From positions 62,001 through 126,000 of the forward strand of contig CALVUI010000001.1 in the NCBI GenBank assembly GCA_944363565.1: a stretch of 64,000 bases of DNA, written 5' to 3'. Source of the DNA: an uncultured Bacilli bacterium. GTDB lineage: Bacteria; Bacillota_I; Bacilli_A; RFN20; CAG-826. Of this stretch, positions 37,026-45,914 are shown one piece after another (the stretch's first letter is position 1; the number at the start of each line of letters is the position of its first letter). The notes under the pieces are model-generated. The model saw only the letters and a program-made list of their open reading frames with translations. It made no database searches and was not told where the DNA came from. The position numbers and the translations under genes are program-made.

Positions 37026-37055
37026 TTGTAGATGGACAGCCCTTGCCGATATAAT
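37026..37055 (+). promoter_or_regulatory. Promoter of the repeat-rich membrane protein
   Basis: TTGTAG, 18-nt spacer, TATAAT. It lies about 50 nt before the ATG at 37104. Confidence 0.65.
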
Positions 37056-37103
37056 CATGGCAGTAAATATTTGGCAGCGTTCACTGCCGGAGGCAAAGAG
37101 CTT

Positions 37104-39773
37104 ATGAAAAAAAGCGCGAATGTGTTGTCCGTCATCTCTTGGGTATTAGCCATTATCGGCGTTGCCCTCATCGCTTTGACGCCGATGGTCTGCGGTGCCG
37201 CCAGCTATATCAGCGGGGAAGGCGGCTTCCCGACCTACGTCGTGAACGGCATCATCAATCCCCTGATCGACCCGACGAGCGGGGCCCTCGGCCAACTCTT
37301 CAACTTCGAGTTGGTCGGCGCCAATCCCATGCTTTATGCCATCTACGGGATGCTGGCCCTCGTCATCGTCTTGTTCCTCGTCCTCTTGATCCTCCAAATC
37401 GCCAAGCGTCAGCACCGGATCTGGGTCACCCTTTCGATCCTCGTGATCGGCGCCCTCTCGAGCGCCGTCGCCTTGATCGCCATCTTCCCGAACTTCTGGG
37501 GTGAGGGGGTCAACAACGTCATCGGCGCCATCAACAACGCCGTGAACGCGGCCGCCACTGCCGAGGAAGCCCCGATCTCTTCGATGATGGCCACCCTCTT
37601 CACCGTTTATATGTACGCCAGCTACGCCCTCGTGGCCATTGCCTTCATCCTCGTCGTCATCTCCGCCATCTTGGCCTGCGCCAACGTGGCCGGGACCCCG
37701 AAGGAACTCAAGGAAGCCAAACGTTTGGCCGGCAAGTACGGGGCTGCCACCACCGATGACCTCCGCGACGAACTCGATGGGAACCTGAGCCCGGCCCTCG
37801 GTGGCAACCTCCAGGCCACCAATGCTCCGAGCCAAACCCTCTATAACGGCAATTCTCCCCTCATCGTCCAATACATCAACTGCAACGGGGCTTCCGAAGG
37901 GAAACCCGACCATGAGTGCCAATGTGGGGGACACCACAAAGGCCATCTCGACGAAGAAGACATCCGCCGCATCATCCGCGACGAACTCGGGGCCGTCACC
38001 GGCGAACCCGATGCGGACATGATGACCGAGGACGAACTGAAGAAACTCGTCCGCGATGCCGTCCATGAGGCCAAGAAGCCCGGCGAACCCCCGCTTCCGC
38101 CGGTCCCGTCCGAAGAGAAGCCCCTGACCCGCGAAGACGTCAAGGACATCGTGGCCGAACACCTCGGACCCAAGGAAGAACCGAAACCCGAACCCATCGA
38201 TCACGGCATGGAGCCGATGACCGAGGATGATCTCCGTCGCGTCGTCCGCGAGGAAGTCGAGGCCGTCGACGAGGCCAAGCGGGCCCGCGAAGAAGCCGCC
38301 GCCTGCCCGGAAAAGGAAGCCTTGACCGAAGACAAGCTCCGCCAGATCGTGGCCGAGGAACTCGACAAGCTCCCGAAACCGGAGGAAAAGGAAGACGAAG
38401 GCATCGACATGATGACCGAAGACGAACTCCGTAACCTCATCCGGGAGGAAGTCAAGGCTGCCACCGTCGAAGGCGAAAAGGCCATGGCCGATGTCGAATT
38501 CGAGCCTTTGACCGAGGAGAAACTCCGCTCGGTCGTGGCCGAGGAAATCGCCAAGATCCCGCACGAAGAACCGGCCAAGGAAGAAGAAACCGAAGCCCTG
38601 ACCGAAGAAGAACTCCGCAACCTCATCCGCGAGGAAGTCGAAGGCGCGGCCCCGAAGGCCGTGGAAACCAAGGCCGAGGACAGTGCCGAAGTCCTGACCG
38701 AAGCCGACCTCAAGCGCCTCATCTCCGAAGAATTGGCCGCCCATGACCAAAAGGTGGCCGAGGAAGTCGAAGAGGGGGTGGTCGAGAAGCCGGACGAGGA
38801 TAGCTACCTCACCTCCGAAGACCTCCGTCAGATCGTCCGCGAGGAACTGGCCGAGGCCCAGCCGAAGGAAGAAAAGAAGGAAGAGGCCGACATCCGCGCC
38901 ATCATCAGCGAGGAAATCGCCAAGATCAAGATTCCCGAGGAAAAGGAAGGCCTGAAGGCCGAAGAAGTCCGGGCCATCGTGGCCGAAGAACTCGACCGCA
39001 AGATGGTCGAGGCCGCCCCGGCCGAGGAACCCAAGGCCGAGGAACCGGCCCCCGAAAAGGCTCCCCAGACCATCGTCATCCACCTCGGCGAAACCCCGGT
39101 CAAGGAAGAGGAAAAGAAGGAAGAGGAAACTCCGATCGTCATCGTCCCGGCCAAGGAAGAACCCGAACCGGAGCCGGAACCCGAACCAGAGCCCGAACCC
39201 GAACCAGAGCCCGAACCCGAACCGGAACCGGAACCCGTGGAGAAGAAGCCCCTCATCCAAATGCCCGAAGGCTATGAGAAGGGCAAGACCCGCCGGGTGG
39301 TCGGGGAAACCAATCCCAACCTCCCGCCCCACGAGAAGATCGTCCGCATTCCCTTCCCGACGAGGATGCTGAAGGCCGACAAGGAGCTGAAGGCCGCCTA
39401 CAACGCCATCAAGGCCGAATGCCTCAGCTACGGCCTCAAGAGCCGTGTCTCCAATTCGGGCGATACCTTCCGTCTCCACACCAAGACCTACGTCAAGCTG
39501 ACGATCGCCGGCAAGAGCCTCAAGCTCTACTTCGCCCTCAACCCGAAGGATTACGCCAATTCCCCGATCCCCGTCTATGACGCCTCGGAGAAGAACATCT
39601 ACAAGGAAATTCCGACGGTCCTCAAGGTCAGAAGCGAACTCTCCCTCAGGAGGGCGCGCCAATTGATCGCCGATGCCTGCGAGCACGACCGCCTCGAGCA
39701 GGGCAAGTTGGTCGAGAAGAACTACGTCAACGAACTCAAGGACTACAAGCCCCAGAATTCGAAGGACGACTGA
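37104..39773 (+). CDS. Large membrane protein with 12 'LTEEELRxxVREEV' repeats and an EP tract
   Basis: 889 aa from the ATG at 37104 (ribosome site GGAGG). Residues 1-195 contain four transmembrane helices. A short Cys/His patch follows (HECQCGGHHKGH, about residue 270-285). About residues 285-640 hold twelve copies of a 14-residue helical motif of the type MTEDELRNLIREEV, spaced by acidic/proline linkers. Then come 13 Glu-Pro pairs, and a C-terminal globular domain of about 140 residues (IPFPTRMLKADKELK ... LTIAGKSLKLYFALNPKDY ... VRSELSLRRARQLI). A similar C-terminal domain occurs in other Firmicutes/Mollicutes hypothetical proteins. The repeats look like docking sites on a long arm. Function is unknown; the gene stands alone between its own promoter and terminator. 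Confidence 0.85.
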   Translation: MKKSANVLSVISWVLAIIGVALIALTPMVCGAASYISGEGGFPTYVVNGIINPLIDPTSGALGQLFNFELVGANPMLYAIYGMLALVIVLFLVLLILQIAKRQHRIWVTLSILVIGALSSAVALIAIFPNFWGEGVNNVIGAINNAVNAAATAEEAPISSMMATLFTVYMYASYALVAIAFILVVISAILACANVAGTPKELKEAKRLAGKYGAATTDDLRDELDGNLSPALGGNLQATNAPSQTLYNGNSPLIVQYINCNGASEGKPDHECQCGGHHKGHLDEEDIRRIIRDELGAVTGEPDADMMTEDELKKLVRDAVHEAKKPGEPPLPPVPSEEKPLTREDVKDIVAEHLGPKEEPKPEPIDHGMEPMTEDDLRRVVREEVEAVDEAKRAREEAAACPEKEALTEDKLRQIVAEELDKLPKPEEKEDEGIDMMTEDELRNLIREEVKAATVEGEKAMADVEFEPLTEEKLRSVVAEEIAKIPHEEPAKEEETEALTEEELRNLIREEVEGAAPKAVETKAEDSAEVLTEADLKRLISEELAAHDQKVAEEVEEGVVEKPDEDSYLTSEDLRQIVREELAEAQPKEEKKEEADIRAIISEEIAKIKIPEEKEGLKAEEVRAIVAEELDRKMVEAAPAEEPKAEEPAPEKAPQTIVIHLGETPVKEEEKKEEETPIVIVPAKEEPEPEPEPEPEPEPEPEPEPEPEPEPVEKKPLIQMPEGYEKGKTRRVVGETNPNLPPHEKIVRIPFPTRMLKADKELKAAYNAIKAECLSYGLKSRVSNSGDTFRLHTKTYVKLTIAGKSLKLYFALNPKDYANSPIPVYDASEKNIYKEIPTVLKVRSELSLRRARQLIADACEHDRLEQGKLVEKNYVNELKDYKPQNSKDD
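39159..39236 (+). repeat. Thirteen tandem Glu-Pro codon pairs
   Basis: A hexanucleotide-like array (GARCCN) within the gene at 37104. The unit keeps frame, so copy-number change would alter arm length without a frameshift. Confidence 0.9.
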
Positions 39774-41322: not shown

Positions 41323-41673
41323 ATGGAAAACACGCTCGATGTCCTCTTCGACAAAACCGACGCCCAAGGGCAGCTCGGCCTCTTCAACGCCCTTTACCGC
41401 AAGGCCCTCATCGACATCGGATTATCCCCCGATACCCATGTCTACGATCTGAAGTTCCAATTCTTGGCGAGGAGGCCCACCGCTTCGGCCCGTTTCCTCC
41501 TCCTATCCCTTTATTACTATTTGGATCTTTGTAAGGAAGAGAGGCGGATCTTCGTCAACGATGTCTTGGAAAGGGGGCGTCACTACCGTTTCTGGTGGCT
41601 TGAGTTCCATACCCCCGAGGAGTATTCGGAACTCAAGCGCTCCTTCTATTCAAAAAGGAGGATGATGGCATGA
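41323..41673 (+). CDS. Small conserved-looking protein leading the Tad-like operon
   Basis: 116 aa, starting after an excellent ribosome site (GGGAGGTGACCCG). It is soluble, helical, and ends with an aromatic stretch, YLDLCKEERRIFVNDVLERG then RHYRFWWLEFHTPEEYSELK. I do not recognise the family. Its stop overlaps the ATG of the next gene, making it the first gene of the operon that encodes a Tad/Flp-like machine. It might be a regulator or an unrelated passenger. Confidence 0.75.
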   Translation: MENTLDVLFDKTDAQGQLGLFNALYRKALIDIGLSPDTHVYDLKFQFLARRPTASARFLLLSLYYYLDLCKEERRIFVNDVLERGRHYRFWWLEFHTPEEYSELKRSFYSKRRMMA

Positions 41674-42710
41674 AACCAATCCGGAAAACCGGGCTTTTAT
41701 TCACCGTTTTCTTGGCCTCCCTGCCGGCCATGATAGGGGCGACATTCCAAAAGGGCTGCCCGCCCTATGACTTCGACGTCGGGCCTTTTTACGCCCGGGG
41801 TGGTATCCCAGAGATGCGGATCGAATACTTCCCGACCTTCACGGGGATCGCCGACGGCTTCTGGCACATCTTCTGCAACGTCTACGACTACGAAACCAAG
41901 ACCACGACCGAGGTGGTGGCCACCATCGACCGGAACTACGTGGCCCCGATCAGGATGTTCGCGGTCTTCGATTTCTCCGACTTCCTGCAGCTGGGGCGGT
42001 ATCTAAGGCTCGACTTCACCTTCAAGACCTGGATGAACACCCAATCGCCGGTCAATTTCCGTATGAATTACGATACGAGGACCAAGAAGGACATCGTTTT
42101 GACAGAGGCCAACAACTGGGCCAGAGGGAAGATGAACTTCGCCCATTACGACCAAACGGCTGAGACTATGTATTATTTTCGCTCCGTCTACGAGATGCCC
42201 CTACTCAAGGACGTGGTCATGGTTGATGAGTGGGGGCGGATCCCCCTCGAGGTCTTCACCCTCAATAACGAAAACGAATTCACCGGGAACCGTTTCCTAG
42301 ACTACGAGTTGGAGATACCGGTCCAGTTGGCCTTAAGCGGGGATCCGGCCCATTACTTCGCCGGCATCGGGAAGACCATCGGGAAAAACGTCCAGATTCC
42401 GATGAAGCTGACCCTCTCGGGTGATTCCTATGTCTTGAGGCCGACCGTTCCCTGGTACTTCGATCCCGTGACCCAGATGATGGGCCAATACGGCGGGAAG
42501 AACACGCCATCGAGCGCCATCGCGACCCAGGACCTCTATTTCCCGGCCCTCAGGGAAGGGGAGGATCCCGAACTGACGATCCGTTATGTCTTCCAAGGGG
42601 CCGGTCGGAGCAGCCCCGACAATCTGAGCGCCACCGTCAAAGTCGTCTCCGAAGGGCCGATCCTCGGTTCCTGCGAAGATAGCGAGTTCTGCGTGGGGGT
42701 GAAAATCTAG
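41670..42710 (+). CDS. Secreted protein of the Tad-like operon
   Basis: 346 aa with a Sec signal peptide (helix at about residues 8-23, likely cleaved at IGA-TF) and no lipobox. The mature protein is rich in beta-strand-like stretches, Tyr and Phe. It has four cysteines (an early CPP and a late SCEDSEFC), which could make disulphides. No known domain was recognised. By position it may be a surface-exposed pilus-tip or assembly factor. ATGA overlap upstream; its stop shares a base with the GTG of the next gene. Confidence 0.75.
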   Translation: MKPIRKTGLLFTVFLASLPAMIGATFQKGCPPYDFDVGPFYARGGIPEMRIEYFPTFTGIADGFWHIFCNVYDYETKTTTEVVATIDRNYVAPIRMFAVFDFSDFLQLGRYLRLDFTFKTWMNTQSPVNFRMNYDTRTKKDIVLTEANNWARGKMNFAHYDQTAETMYYFRSVYEMPLLKDVVMVDEWGRIPLEVFTLNNENEFTGNRFLDYELEIPVQLALSGDPAHYFAGIGKTIGKNVQIPMKLTLSGDSYVLRPTVPWYFDPVTQMMGQYGGKNTPSSAIATQDLYFPALREGEDPELTIRYVFQGAGRSSPDNLSATVKVVSEGPILGSCEDSEFCVGVKI

Positions 42711-43102
42711 TGTCCGCCCTTTTCTTCAGCGCCCTCATCCTTTCCTTCGTCGGCGGGATCTTCTCCTTGACCCGCCAGATCGATTACGTGGACGGGGTCT
42801 TCAAGGGCTTCGCCAAGGCCGTCCCCGAGACGGCCATGACCATCGTCTACGAAAACGGGGAGATGGCGGTCGGCTTCCACCAAAGCGAATTCACGAAGGC
42901 CCTAAGCGCCTACTTCAAGGAAAGGCTTTGGGACCAGTATGCCGGGAAGTATTCCATCTCGATGACCTACTACCAACACCCGGATTATCCGGGGATCCGC
43001 AAATACCCGACGGCCGTCAGCATCCGCTTCTACTGCGACATCAACATCATGGTGCGTTACAGCGAGACCGTCGAATTCTACATCAGGAGGAACCATGGAT
43101 AA
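42710..43102 (+). CDS. TadE/pseudopilin-like membrane-anchored protein
   Basis: 130 aa starting at GTG 42710, which overlaps the upstream TAG. One N-terminal hydrophobic helix (about 3-19, ALFFSALILSFVGGIFS) is followed by an extracellular domain of about 105 residues. This is the layout of TadE/TadF minor pilins, although the usual Glu5 is not obvious. Its stop overlaps the ATPase gene by 8 nt. Identification rests mainly on topology and on the flanking pilus genes. Confidence 0.65.
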   Translation: MSALFFSALILSFVGGIFSLTRQIDYVDGVFKGFAKAVPETAMTIVYENGEMAVGFHQSEFTKALSAYFKERLWDQYAGKYSISMTYYQHPDYPGIRKYPTAVSIRFYCDINIMVRYSETVEFYIRRNHG

Positions 43103-44030
43103 GCAAAGGACCATCGATTTCTTGGAAACGAGTTTCCTCGCCCCGCTATTGGGCTTGGAAGGACTGACCGACATTTCCTATAACGGCGAAAGCCTCTATT
43201 ACATGACCAACGGCGAGGGTCGTAAGAAAGCCGACATCAAGGTCGAACGTGAGGAAGTCGGGGACTTCATCCGCCAGATCGCCAACATGGAGGAGAAGAA
43301 GTGGAATTATAGCGATCCCCTTCTCGATCTGAGCTTTGGTCATTACCGTCTCAACGCCGTCTTTTCGAGCCTGGTCAGGGTCGAAAACCAGAAATCCTAT
43401 TCCTTCTCCTTGCGTTTGGAATCGGGGAGCAGCCGGATCGAAGGGGACGAGGCCTTCTTCGGGGAAAACGGACGGGAGATCCTCCTCAAGGCCCTTTACG
43501 AAGGCGAGTCGATCATGATCGGCGGGAAGACGGGATCGGGGAAAACCGAACTCCAGAAGTGGCTTTTGCTCCATCTGCCGCCGGCGACCCGGGTCATCGT
43601 CATCGACAACGTCGAGGAACTGACGATGATCAAGAACCCTTCCGTCGACCTGACGATGTGGCTTTCGGGCCAAAGTGAGGAAAGTTACGCGATGCTGGTC
43701 AAAAACGCCCTCCGCAGCAACCCCGATTACATCGTCTTGGCGGAAGCCCGGGGTACCGAAGCCTATGAAGCCTTGTCCTCGGCCATGACCGGCCACCCCA
43801 TCATTACTACCATGCACGCCCGCGGTTTGGCGGAAATGCCGGAGCGCTTTCTCAACATGGCCATCAAGGCCCACGAGGGCCTCGATGCCAAGGGTCTATT
43901 GAAGGACATCAAGGACCATTTCCGTTACTACGTGATGCTCGAGAGGAAGGAAGAAGAAGGGAAGATCGTTCGGAGGATCAAAAGCATTGGCCACCTAAAG
44001 GGCGGCAAGATGGAGGTCCTATGCGCCTAA
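43095..44030 (+). CDS. Tad/CpaF-type secretion ATPase
   Basis: Hexameric ATPases of this family power Tad pili and related secretion. The 311-aa protein has a short N-terminal domain (1-125), Walker A GGKTGSGKT (143-151), an Asp box VIVIDNVEEL (167-176), Walker B region PDYIVLAEAR (210-219) and the His box TTMHA (238-242). It is shorter than CpaF (about 450 aa), lacking the N-terminal extension. The combination with two separate TadB- and TadC-like proteins fits Tad rather than ComG or type II secretion. Overlaps join it to neighbours on both sides. Confidence 0.9.
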   Translation: MDKQRTIDFLETSFLAPLLGLEGLTDISYNGESLYYMTNGEGRKKADIKVEREEVGDFIRQIANMEEKKWNYSDPLLDLSFGHYRLNAVFSSLVRVENQKSYSFSLRLESGSSRIEGDEAFFGENGREILLKALYEGESIMIGGKTGSGKTELQKWLLLHLPPATRVIVIDNVEELTMIKNPSVDLTMWLSGQSEESYAMLVKNALRSNPDYIVLAEARGTEAYEALSSAMTGHPIITTMHARGLAEMPERFLNMAIKAHEGLDAKGLLKDIKDHFRYYVMLERKEEEGKIVRRIKSIGHLKGGKMEVLCA

Positions 44031-44740
44031 ACCGCGAGGCCCAGGGCATCTTCCTATCCCTTGGACTTGGTGTCCTATTCGGGGCCCTTTACTACTTTGT
44101 CTTGGAAGACCTCGTCGTCGCCCTTGTGGTCCTTGGCTTGACTTTCGCCTTCTTCCTCTTCCTCCAACTGACTTTCGTGAGGAAATACCGTCTAAGAAGG
44201 ATCAAGGAACACGAGGACTACCGTTTCATCCATAGCTTCGTGGCTTCCCTATCGACGACCGGGAGCCTGGAGACCGCCTACCAAAGCGCCATCGAGGGGG
44301 CCGATGAGGAATTGCTGAAGGTCGCGAGGGCGCTTGAGGATCGGAGGATCGAAGAGAGGGTTTCCTATCTGGCAGGCTACTTTCGAAGCGACACCTTCTC
44401 GATGTTCGTTTCCCTCTTCTCCCTTTATCAGGAACAGGGTGGGAACTTCCTGAAGATGGCCGCTCCTCTCTTGACCGAATCGGCCCGGGCTGAGGAGGAG
44501 AACAATCGAAAAGACGATATAGGGAAGCGGACTCTGCGGGAATTTTGCCTCCTTTGGGGGATGGCTTGCCTGATTCTACTGACCTTGCGGTTCGCCCTTT
44601 CTGGCTTCTACGAGGAACTGAGGGAAATGCAGTCCTACCGCCTTTCTTCCCTCTTGTTCCTTCCCATCTTCTATCTTTCCTCCTACCTCTTCTTAGCAAC
44701 GAGGACCGGGGAAAGGCTTCTACCTAGGAGAAGGAAATGA
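44021..44740 (+). CDS. TadB-like inner-membrane platform protein
   Basis: 239 aa with two N-terminal helices (about 10-50), a cytoplasmic domain of about 120 residues and two C-terminal helices, the T2SSF/TadB layout. The cytoplasmic part has the family's 'FIHSFVASLSTTGSLETAYQ' type start and the mid-loop LYQEQGGNFLKMAAPLLTE. It would form the platform moved by the ATPase, together with the TadC-like protein. The ribosome site GGAGGT lies inside the ATPase gene, which it overlaps by 10 nt. Confidence 0.82.
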   Translation: MRLNREAQGIFLSLGLGVLFGALYYFVLEDLVVALVVLGLTFAFFLFLQLTFVRKYRLRRIKEHEDYRFIHSFVASLSTTGSLETAYQSAIEGADEELLKVARALEDRRIEERVSYLAGYFRSDTFSMFVSLFSLYQEQGGNFLKMAAPLLTESARAEEENNRKDDIGKRTLREFCLLWGMACLILLTLRFALSGFYEELREMQSYRLSSLLFLPIFYLSSYLFLATRTGERLLPRRRK

Positions 44741-45378
44741 AGGGACGCCTCAGGGTCTTGCCCTGGCGTCTCGTCGCTCTCGGCCTCATCAACCTCCTCC
44801 TCATTGCCCTCGGCATCTACCTCTATCTCGATAGCGGCAATTCCTTCCTCCTCTTAGCTTTCGCCCTCGTCCTCCTCGCCATCGATCTCTTCGGCTTCTA
44901 CCAGCCAAAGAAAGGCACTGCCAAGGGGGAATTGCAGGATGACTTCGTCCGTCTCTTCACCTACTTCGGAATCTACATGGAATGCGGCTACCCGGTCTAT
45001 ACGGCCCTAAGGGAAGGCCGGAAGTACGCCTCCCCTTTGCTTTCGGGGATGGTCGATACCCTGCTTTCCGAAATCGACGCCGACAAGAGCTTGGCCCCCT
45101 ATCTGAAGTTCGCCGCCGTCTTCGACTCGGTGGCCATCAGGCAGGTCATGGTCGCCGTCTACCAGATGGTGGAGGAGGGCTACAACGGGAATTACGTCTA
45201 CCAATTCCAAACCTTGTTCTCGGCCCTCAGCGCCCAGCGGCGGCGCGAAGCGACCTTACGCGAGGAAAAGCGCCTCGAGGCCCTCTGCGTCTTCCCGTTA
45301 GTCGGTAGTGCCGTCTCCATCACCATGGTGGCCCTCGCCATCGTCAATTTGGTCGGAGGTTTCATCAGTGGGATCTAA
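44737..45378 (+). CDS. TadC-like inner-membrane platform protein
   Basis: 213 aa. Two N-terminal helices (about 10-50), a cytoplasmic domain with LQDDFVRLFTYFGIYMECGY and a second half containing LSAQRRREATLREEKRLEAL, then a C-terminal helix (about 188-208). This is the T2SSF half-domain seen in TadC. ATGA overlap with the TadB-like gene. It is shorter than typical TadC proteins (about 300 aa). Confidence 0.8.
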   Translation: MKGRLRVLPWRLVALGLINLLLIALGIYLYLDSGNSFLLLAFALVLLAIDLFGFYQPKKGTAKGELQDDFVRLFTYFGIYMECGYPVYTALREGRKYASPLLSGMVDTLLSEIDADKSLAPYLKFAAVFDSVAIRQVMVAVYQMVEEGYNGNYVYQFQTLFSALSAQRRREATLREEKRLEALCVFPLVGSAVSITMVALAIVNLVGGFISGI

Positions 45379-45703
45379 GTTGGCCCTCATCATTGGGTTC
45401 GGGTTCATTATCATGGCCCTTTGCTACGCCGGCGACCTCATCGCCATCCAGGTCATCCATAGCCAGCTCGACGCCATCTCCCTCACGGTCAGTCAGCACA
45501 TTTCCTATTACGGGACCCTGGTCCAAAAGACCATCGACTTCGTCGAAAAAGACGGTAAGACCCACATCGTTTCCCTCAGCGGCCCGGTCCAGATCGGCGA
45601 AGTCTACGAATATCGCCTCTACCGGGAATACGATCCTCTCTTCATGGGGGATGAGGTAATGGAGATCTCGATCCGCCGCTCCGCGGTGGTGGGATATTAC
45701 TAG
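45368..45703 (+). CDS. Second pseudopilin-like protein
   Basis: 111 aa starting at GTG 45368. I chose this start because CGGAGGT lies 7 nt upstream inside the TadC-like gene. An N-terminal hydrophobic helix (about 4-24) is followed by a small extracellular domain (HISYYGTLVQKTIDFVEKDG ... VYEYRLYREYDPLF). The topology matches TadE/F-like minor pilins. It overlaps the TadC-like gene by 11 nt and the main pilin candidate follows 15 nt after its stop. Confidence 0.7.
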   Translation: MGSKLALIIGFGFIIMALCYAGDLIAIQVIHSQLDAISLTVSQHISYYGTLVQKTIDFVEKDGKTHIVSLSGPVQIGEVYEYRLYREYDPLFMGDEVMEISIRRSAVVGYY

Positions 45704-45718
45704 GAAAGGAGGTAAAGC

Positions 45719-45880
45719 ATGTCGGAATTCAAGGGACAGTTGCTCGGCATCGTCTTGGTCATCGCGGCTTTCGCCGCCATCGGCACGATTCTGGTCGGGG
45801 CGTTCGAAACCAGCGCCACCGCCATCGGCAGCCAGATCACCAACATCGACTCGACCAGCCTATTGAACGTCCAGCTCTAA
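45719..45880 (+). CDS. 53-aa Flp-like major pilin candidate
   Basis: This gene is very short. ATG is preceded by AGGAAAGGAGGTAAAGC, the strongest ribosome site in the operon, as expected for the most abundant subunit. The product is MSEFKGQ followed by a long hydrophobic helix (LLGIVLVIAAFAAIGTILVG, residues 8-27) and a polar tail of about 25 residues. A plausible prepilin cleavage site is Gly6-Gln7, an arrangement like the 'KGQ' sites of archaeal class III signal peptides rather than the G-xxxxE of Flp. It is the last gene before a terminator. No prepilin peptidase is in the window. Confidence 0.75.
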   Translation: MSEFKGQLLGIVLVIAAFAAIGTILVGAFETSATAIGSQITNIDSTSLLNVQL

Positions 45881-45891
45881 GGAGGGAGGAG

Positions 45892-45914
45892 AGGCGGCCA
45901 TCGGCCGCCTTTTT
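45892..45914 (+). terminator. Terminator of the Tad-like operon
   Basis: AGGCGGCC, loop ATC, GGCCGCCT, then TTTT. Confidence 0.88.

Follow-up and report, generated by a model that had tools for sequence, protein, structure and literature searches.

A Tad-like operon encoding a putative type IV filament in Bacilli genomes that lack a recognizable prepilin peptidase

An eight-gene operon in an uncultured Bacilli bacterium

We analyzed a stretch of 64,000 nucleotides (hereafter, the window) from contig CALVUI010000001.1 of an uncultured Bacilli bacterium (assembly GCA_944363565.1), and in it an operon of eight genes, g1 to g8 (Table 1), which appears to encode a reduced Tad-like filament machine. 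The source genome comprises 1.26 Mb in nine contigs and is 95% complete. Its nearest named relatives are uncultured rumen and gut Bacilli, including Candidatus Alloenteromonas and Candidatus Fiminaster, which are assigned to order RFN20 in GTDB.

The original prediction described eight tightly packed genes, and from 41323 to 45880 the + strand indeed contains all eight open reading frames (ORFs). Neighboring genes overlap by 1–11 bp, with the sole exception of a 15-bp gap before g8. The Shine-Dalgarno sequence of g8 is near-perfect, and just 3′ of this gene lies an intrinsic terminator with a 7-bp GC stem followed by five U (folding energy −30.5 kcal/mol, z = −5.4), which an automatic terminator scan had missed and which we found by reading and folding the sequence. 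Because this strong terminator directly follows g8, the transcription unit ends there. A promoter scan of the operon gave no signal above chance.

Table 1. Genes and signals of the operon (window coordinates)
Feature	Position	Strand	Description	Evidence
g1	41323..41673	+	116-aa helical cytoplasmic protein; motif LE[KR]G..Y..WW; remote kin of MG284/MPN403 domain	Alignment, AlphaFold2 (AF2), NF045770
g2	41670..42710	+	346 aa; signal peptide at the N-terminus; rich in beta structure; evolves fast; candidate for a tip adhesin or a partner outside the cell	
g3	42710..43102	+	130-aa minor-pilin-like protein; N-terminal helix without leader	
g4	43095..44030	+	CpaF/TadA-type ATPase, 311 aa; Walker A GGKTGSGKTE; short N-terminal domain	
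g5	44021..44740	+	TadB-like platform protein, 239 aa	hhalign to canonical TadB
g6	44737..45378	+	TadC-like platform protein, 213 aa	hhalign to canonical TadC
g7	45368..45703	+	TadE-like minor pilin of 111 aa; GTG start codon at 45368; M-[SGA]-x-K-L-[GAS]-[FL] at the N-terminus leads into a hydrophobic helix	
Shine-Dalgarno of g8	45705..45713	+	AAAGGAGGT	Read directly
g8	45719..45880	+	Major mini-pilin of 53 aa with the invariant start M-[SGAT]-E-x-K-[GA]-[QT]	92 distinct homologs aligned
Intrinsic terminator	45893..45914	+	GGCGGCC-ATC-GGCCGCC-TTTTT	Sequence and fold

The ATPase, platform, and pilin-like proteins

The g4 protein scores 111 bits against the TadA profile (TIGR03819), which is below the curated cut-off of that family, and 110 bits against VirB11, compared with 60 for ComGA, 45 for PilT, and 36 for PilB. 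Among proteins of known structure its matches are CpaF in PDB (104 bits) and the archaeal GspE-2, and the catalytic motifs are all conserved in the alignment of its homologs. By these sequence comparisons g4 sorts with TadA and VirB11 and not with ComGA, PilT, or PilB, in keeping with the CpaF type that had been proposed. It is also the only ATPase of the T2SSE family above cut-off in its own genome.

Neither g5 nor g6 of the window has a usable direct match in Pfam, and a T2SSF match is found in 2 out of 25 g6 homologs. Profile–profile comparison with hhalign nevertheless upholds the proposed homology to separate TadB and TadC proteins, with probabilities of 91% (g5 to canonical TadB) and 95.5% (g6 to canonical TadC). 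By homology, then, g4 is the assembly ATPase, and g5 and g6 are the two parts of a membrane platform.

Three small single-helix proteins, g3, g7, and g8, resemble pilins; g3 varies more than g7. We infer that g8 is the major mini-pilin, whereas g7 and g3 would be minor pilins with a role in priming or capping the filament. The Pfam TadE model matches neither g7 nor g3, though both show the topology of TadE/TadF pseudopilins.

Conservation and inheritance

By scanning contigs with an alignment of ATPases we detected 205 relatives, of which 80 were kept; a query with a single ATPase had matched nothing. Of the 36 other genomes in the genus, 34 carry the ATPase, which also occurs in several further families of this order. 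When genomes from across the class with a completeness of at least 90% were sampled, it was found in 26 of 27 members of the same family that belong to other genera. Gene order is identical in all 71 distinct loci with full flanks, in keeping with the proposal of a reduced, lineage-specific Tad-like machine whose arrangement is kept in relatives. The genes g4 to g7 are found in all 71 of these loci, g8 in 70, g2 in 53, and g1 in 43; that the last two are found less often fits their faster evolution.

The position of the operon on the chromosome is also fixed. In the window it is flanked by a divergent guanylate-kinase-like gene upstream and acpP downstream, and these neighbors recur in 57 out of 64 and 53 out of 60 loci, respectively. 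Ratios of nonsynonymous to synonymous substitution (dN/dS) in close pairs lie between 0.00 and 0.39 across all eight genes, which is the mark of purifying selection. A quick tree of the ATPase, with some long branches, tracks taxonomy, with genus, family, and order nested. The operon is a near-core, chromosomal system that is vertically inherited.

Variants occur at the pilin end of the operon. One relative (L180) has two tandem mini-pilins of the g8 type after g7, with SEIKGQLLG and MSEIKGALLT; at a divergent copy in another genome (L194), g8 was not found, and g7 is followed by a 320-aa protein with an N-terminal helix.

Absence of an A24 prepilin peptidase

The A24 prepilin peptidase (Pfam PF01478) was not found in the source genome even at E ≤ 10, nor in any of the 37 genomes of the genus, among them a single-contig genome that is 99% complete. 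Of 27 additional genomes of the family (from the sample at least 90% complete), 26 likewise lack it. In the sole exception (G299, locus L193, C2:246000-261000), the peptidase adjoins pilins of the KAFTLIELVVV type and so belongs to a separate T4a-like system; two other peptidase-positive genomes of the order, G044 and G057, likewise carry PilB/PilC loci. In other families, 50 out of 53 genomes with a related ATPase have an A24 peptidase.

A peptidase profile tuned to the lineage matched each of the five positive controls, whereas the other 22 genomes with the system gave no match; a search for the archaeal-type peptidase (PF06847) was likewise negative. Neither the operon nor its conserved flanks hold a candidate peptidase. 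Incomplete assemblies cannot account for the absence. The original prediction took the lack of a prepilin peptidase in the genome as grounds for giving up the machine, and we found no A24 peptidase; since the absence is nearly family-wide and the operon is under purifying selection, we regard it as a remarkable property of the system rather than a refutation.

N-termini of the pilins

The g8 proteins begin with M-[S/G/A/T]-E-x-K-[G/A] in 92 distinct sequences, one of which has Asn for Lys. Position 2 is S, G, A, or T in all 92, and S, G, or A in 95 of 96 distinct g7 proteins. Over both families one of these four residues stands at position 2 in 187 out of 188 cases, compared with a background of 23% in ORFs of the same loci, where lysine is commonest, although homologs of g7 and g8 share descent and the counts are thus not independent observations. 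Proteins with such small second residues are substrates of methionine aminopeptidase, which removes Met1. Pilins of peptidase-bearing relatives (in the families that we label f17, f25, and f20) instead start with MK or MR. The lineages without a peptidase thus have pilins that are suited to removal of the methionine.

Since there is no A24 peptidase, the pilins are probably used nearly as translated. Methionine aminopeptidase would strip Met1 and expose Ser, Gly, or Ala; the short N-terminus, with its invariant Glu3 and near-invariant Lys5, would be retained in the mature subunit; and ATP hydrolysis by g4 would drive g8 subunits out of the membrane to form a thin filament at the surface of the monoderm cell. 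We consider the case for such a machine, namely a chromosomal and vertically inherited type IV filament system of a Tad-like branch, with no A24 peptidase and with pilins used almost as translated, to be about evenly balanced. The broader proposition, that the family and much of the order build a type IV filament without any prepilin peptidase, from subunits encoded at mature length whose only N-terminal processing is by methionine aminopeptidase, is more tentative.

Several observations weigh against this reading. At position 6, g8 has only G or A (92/92), and g7 has G, A, or S, with T once (96/96). Prepilin peptidases cut after a small residue of this kind, and canonical leaders can be six residues long, so that a cut by an unrecognized peptidase is possible. 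The MG- start is also seen on a g7-like protein of conjugative-type relatives, in family f13 within a peptidase-bearing genome, and may therefore predate the loss of the peptidase. Nor do the DNA-uptake genes comEA and dprA point to the operon, because they are found in 45 out of 45 genomes tested, including members of the order without it. The filament itself is a prediction from the genes.

The main rival reading is accordingly that a peptidase not homologous to A24, or too far diverged from it to be detected, cleaves the pilins behind residue 6, in which case the machine would be an ordinary Tad-like pilus. A Lys precedes the uniformly small residue at this site, and M-x-E-x-x-G is also the pattern in the aligned pilins of relatives that have a peptidase. 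However, three A24-type profiles match nothing in many near-complete genomes while the positive controls are matched, the operon and conserved flanks offer no candidate, and several lineages have Ala instead of Gly at this position of g8; we judge such cleavage to be somewhat unlikely. We had also considered the fixed length of the N-terminus as proof of an uncut leader, and dropped the argument since peptidase-bearing relatives too have short and fixed N-termini and some canonical leaders are only six residues in length; the argument that we retain is the contrast at position 2.

At four loci of family f25 (L166, L168, L172, and L174) we observed Flp-like pilins that start with MKAFFEEYG or MKIFFEEYG, so that Glu-Tyr is present yet too close to the start for a leader to fit; these genomes have a peptidase elsewhere.

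Possible functions of the machine

Attachment in the gut or rumen is the most likely job of the predicted filament, somewhat favored over DNA uptake, with g2 as candidate adhesin. This protein is probably a Sec-exported partner, either a tip adhesin or another surface-facing part. It is the fastest-evolving component (dN/dS 0.08–0.39), and most of its homologs carry a C-terminal G.C..S.YCV motif. It had been described as disulfide-rich, which overstates the case, as the window protein has four cysteines. Its AF2 model is all-beta (pLDDT 72), and a fold search returned weak matches only.

DNA uptake is the main functional alternative; this reading, in which the operon encodes a competence pseudopilus in place of ComG, draws on the gene content of the source genome. 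This genome has dprA and a greA-comEA-comEC operon (L204, C1:463000-470000), in which comEC falls below the Pfam threshold although its ORF, of 734 aa and with an MBL-type domain, is clear. No ComG-type ATPase above cut-off and no ComC were found in this genome, which leaves g4 as its one T2SSE-family ATPase above cut-off, and the closest relatives of the machine serve DNA transfer. Like the ComG pilus, the operon is a minimal monoderm set of ATPase, platform, and small pilins. In contrast to ComG, its ATPase is not of the ComGA type (60 versus 111 bits), there are two platform proteins rather than one, and TLIE pilins and ComC are missing. With comEA and dprA kept irrespective of the operon there is no co-occurrence signal, and ComG has no counterpart to g2, a large and fast-evolving extracellular protein. 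We therefore think a role in competence unlikely.

A pseudopilus that secretes g2 or another substrate, in the manner of a type II secretion system, would also fit small subunits, a single ATPase, and a large exported protein in the same operon. But g2 has its own N-terminal signal peptide, and a monoderm cell needs no second membrane crossing, which makes secretion an improbable function compared with a surface pilus.

Relation to known systems and origin

As in Tad (type IVc, Flp) loci, a single operon combines an ATPase of the CpaF/TadA type, separate TadB and TadC genes after it, small pilins, and TadE-like proteins. It differs from them in several respects: A search of the eight proteins of the operon found no TadV, TadZ, RcpC/CpaB, or secretin; the genome has no A24 peptidase; the ATPase and platform proteins are shorter; and the ATPase lies outside the canonical Tad branch. 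Monoderm bacteria are not expected to have a secretin. The g8 protein reads MSE.K[GA]QLLG, with no Glu5 or Tyr6 after residue 6, and so lacks the Flp pilin motif. Although the operon would work like a Tad-type filament machine, we do not file it as a Tad member, because the A24 peptidase and the Flp motif are missing and TadZ is not among its eight proteins. Measured against the component set of the wider type IV filament superfamily, the ATPase and platform are present, the peptidase is absent, and the pilin leader is ambiguous. The divergent Tad-like loci of families f17, f25, and f20 also combine a CpaF-type ATPase with TadB/TadC and mini-pilins with short N-termini, but those genomes nearly always have an A24 peptidase.

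Outside the order, the closest ATPases are encoded on Bacillus badius pPM400, on a Listeria plasmid, in a phage-collection record that derives from Listeria, and in family f13. In the ATPase tree, a quick one with some long branches, those of conjugative elements form the nearest outgroup of the order's system (SH-aLRT 97–98), and canonical Tad, VirB11, and TrbB lie further out. The closest modules are of the pLS20 type, with ATPase identities of 37% (pPM400) and 30% (Listeria pLIS25). On pPM400 the ATPase gene stands with VirD4-like, VirB4, and pLS20_p028-type genes and two T2SSF-family proteins, and the likeness extends to TadB-/TadC-like and small helix-first proteins; no peptidase is annotated in the stretch of pPM400 that we read. 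The machine would thus share its stock with the CpaF/TadB/TadC module of pLS20-type conjugative elements, as shown for the ATPase. Whereas those loci adjoin genes of the VirD4/VirB4 type, here the module stands alone on the chromosome, with its own mini-pilin g8 and exported g2.

Such kinship raises the idea that a conjugative element decayed or was orphaned and left the operon behind as a remnant, since its ATPase, TadB, and TadC are nearest to those of pPM400, where VirB4, VirD4, and a pLS20-type membrane protein are encoded. A VirD4-family protein (PF02534) was not found in the source genome or in 18 of 22 others tested, and because of this the operon is not a conjugation system. Its fixed chromosomal position, taxonomy-like tree, and purifying selection further counter the idea of a remnant, which is largely refuted by this conservation and which we hold to be very improbable.

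Two conjugation regions of the pLS20 type (L197, on pPM400, and L165) encode small helix-first proteins together with TadB/TadC-like proteins and an ATPase of the CpaF type. Their gene content suggests a pilus-like device in Gram-positive conjugation, where the transfer systems of conjugative plasmids are said to lack pili (PMC8092201; PMC11730352).

Prepilin peptidase has been counted among the conserved parts of type IV filament systems, with Nanoarchaeota the only phylum in which none was detected (PMC4471445), and is listed among the ancestral parts (PMC6668835). MSH loci without a peptidase gene are known, with the peptidase elsewhere in the same genomes (Denise et al. 2019, PMC6668835), and Gram-positive tad-like loci without recognizable prepilins do have tadV (Imam et al. 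2011, PMC3244431). In the literature that we searched, which is incomplete, we came across no report of bacteria in which such a system is conserved throughout a lineage while any peptidase is missing. If the ATPase, platform, and pilins are indeed kept under strong selection without that enzyme, leader cleavage would be dispensable. The operon also connects a filament system of the chromosome with the pilus-like module, itself poorly understood, that conjugative plasmids of Gram-positive bacteria carry.

The first gene of the operon and a neighboring membrane protein

The leader gene g1 had, like g2, been assigned to no recognized family. This no longer holds entirely: Nine out of 18 g1 homologs weakly match the NCBIfam model NF045770 (the Mycoplasma MG284/MPN403 domain; best E = 9e-5), with g1 of the window below the curated cut-off. 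Literature on MG284/MPN403 gave nothing relevant. Structure prediction had been proposed for both proteins and neither model gave a usable fold match; that of g1 is helical (pLDDT 85), with no match among PDB or viral folds. We considered a helix-turn-helix reading of g1 from the helical pattern alone and found no further support for it.

Elsewhere in the window, a gene at 37032–39773 (+ strand) encodes a membrane protein of 889–913 aa whose C-terminal domain is conserved and which also contains a Pro-Glu run and long repeats of the acidic/Lys-Glu kind. Near the pilus locus of a relative (L047) lies part of a homolog of this protein.

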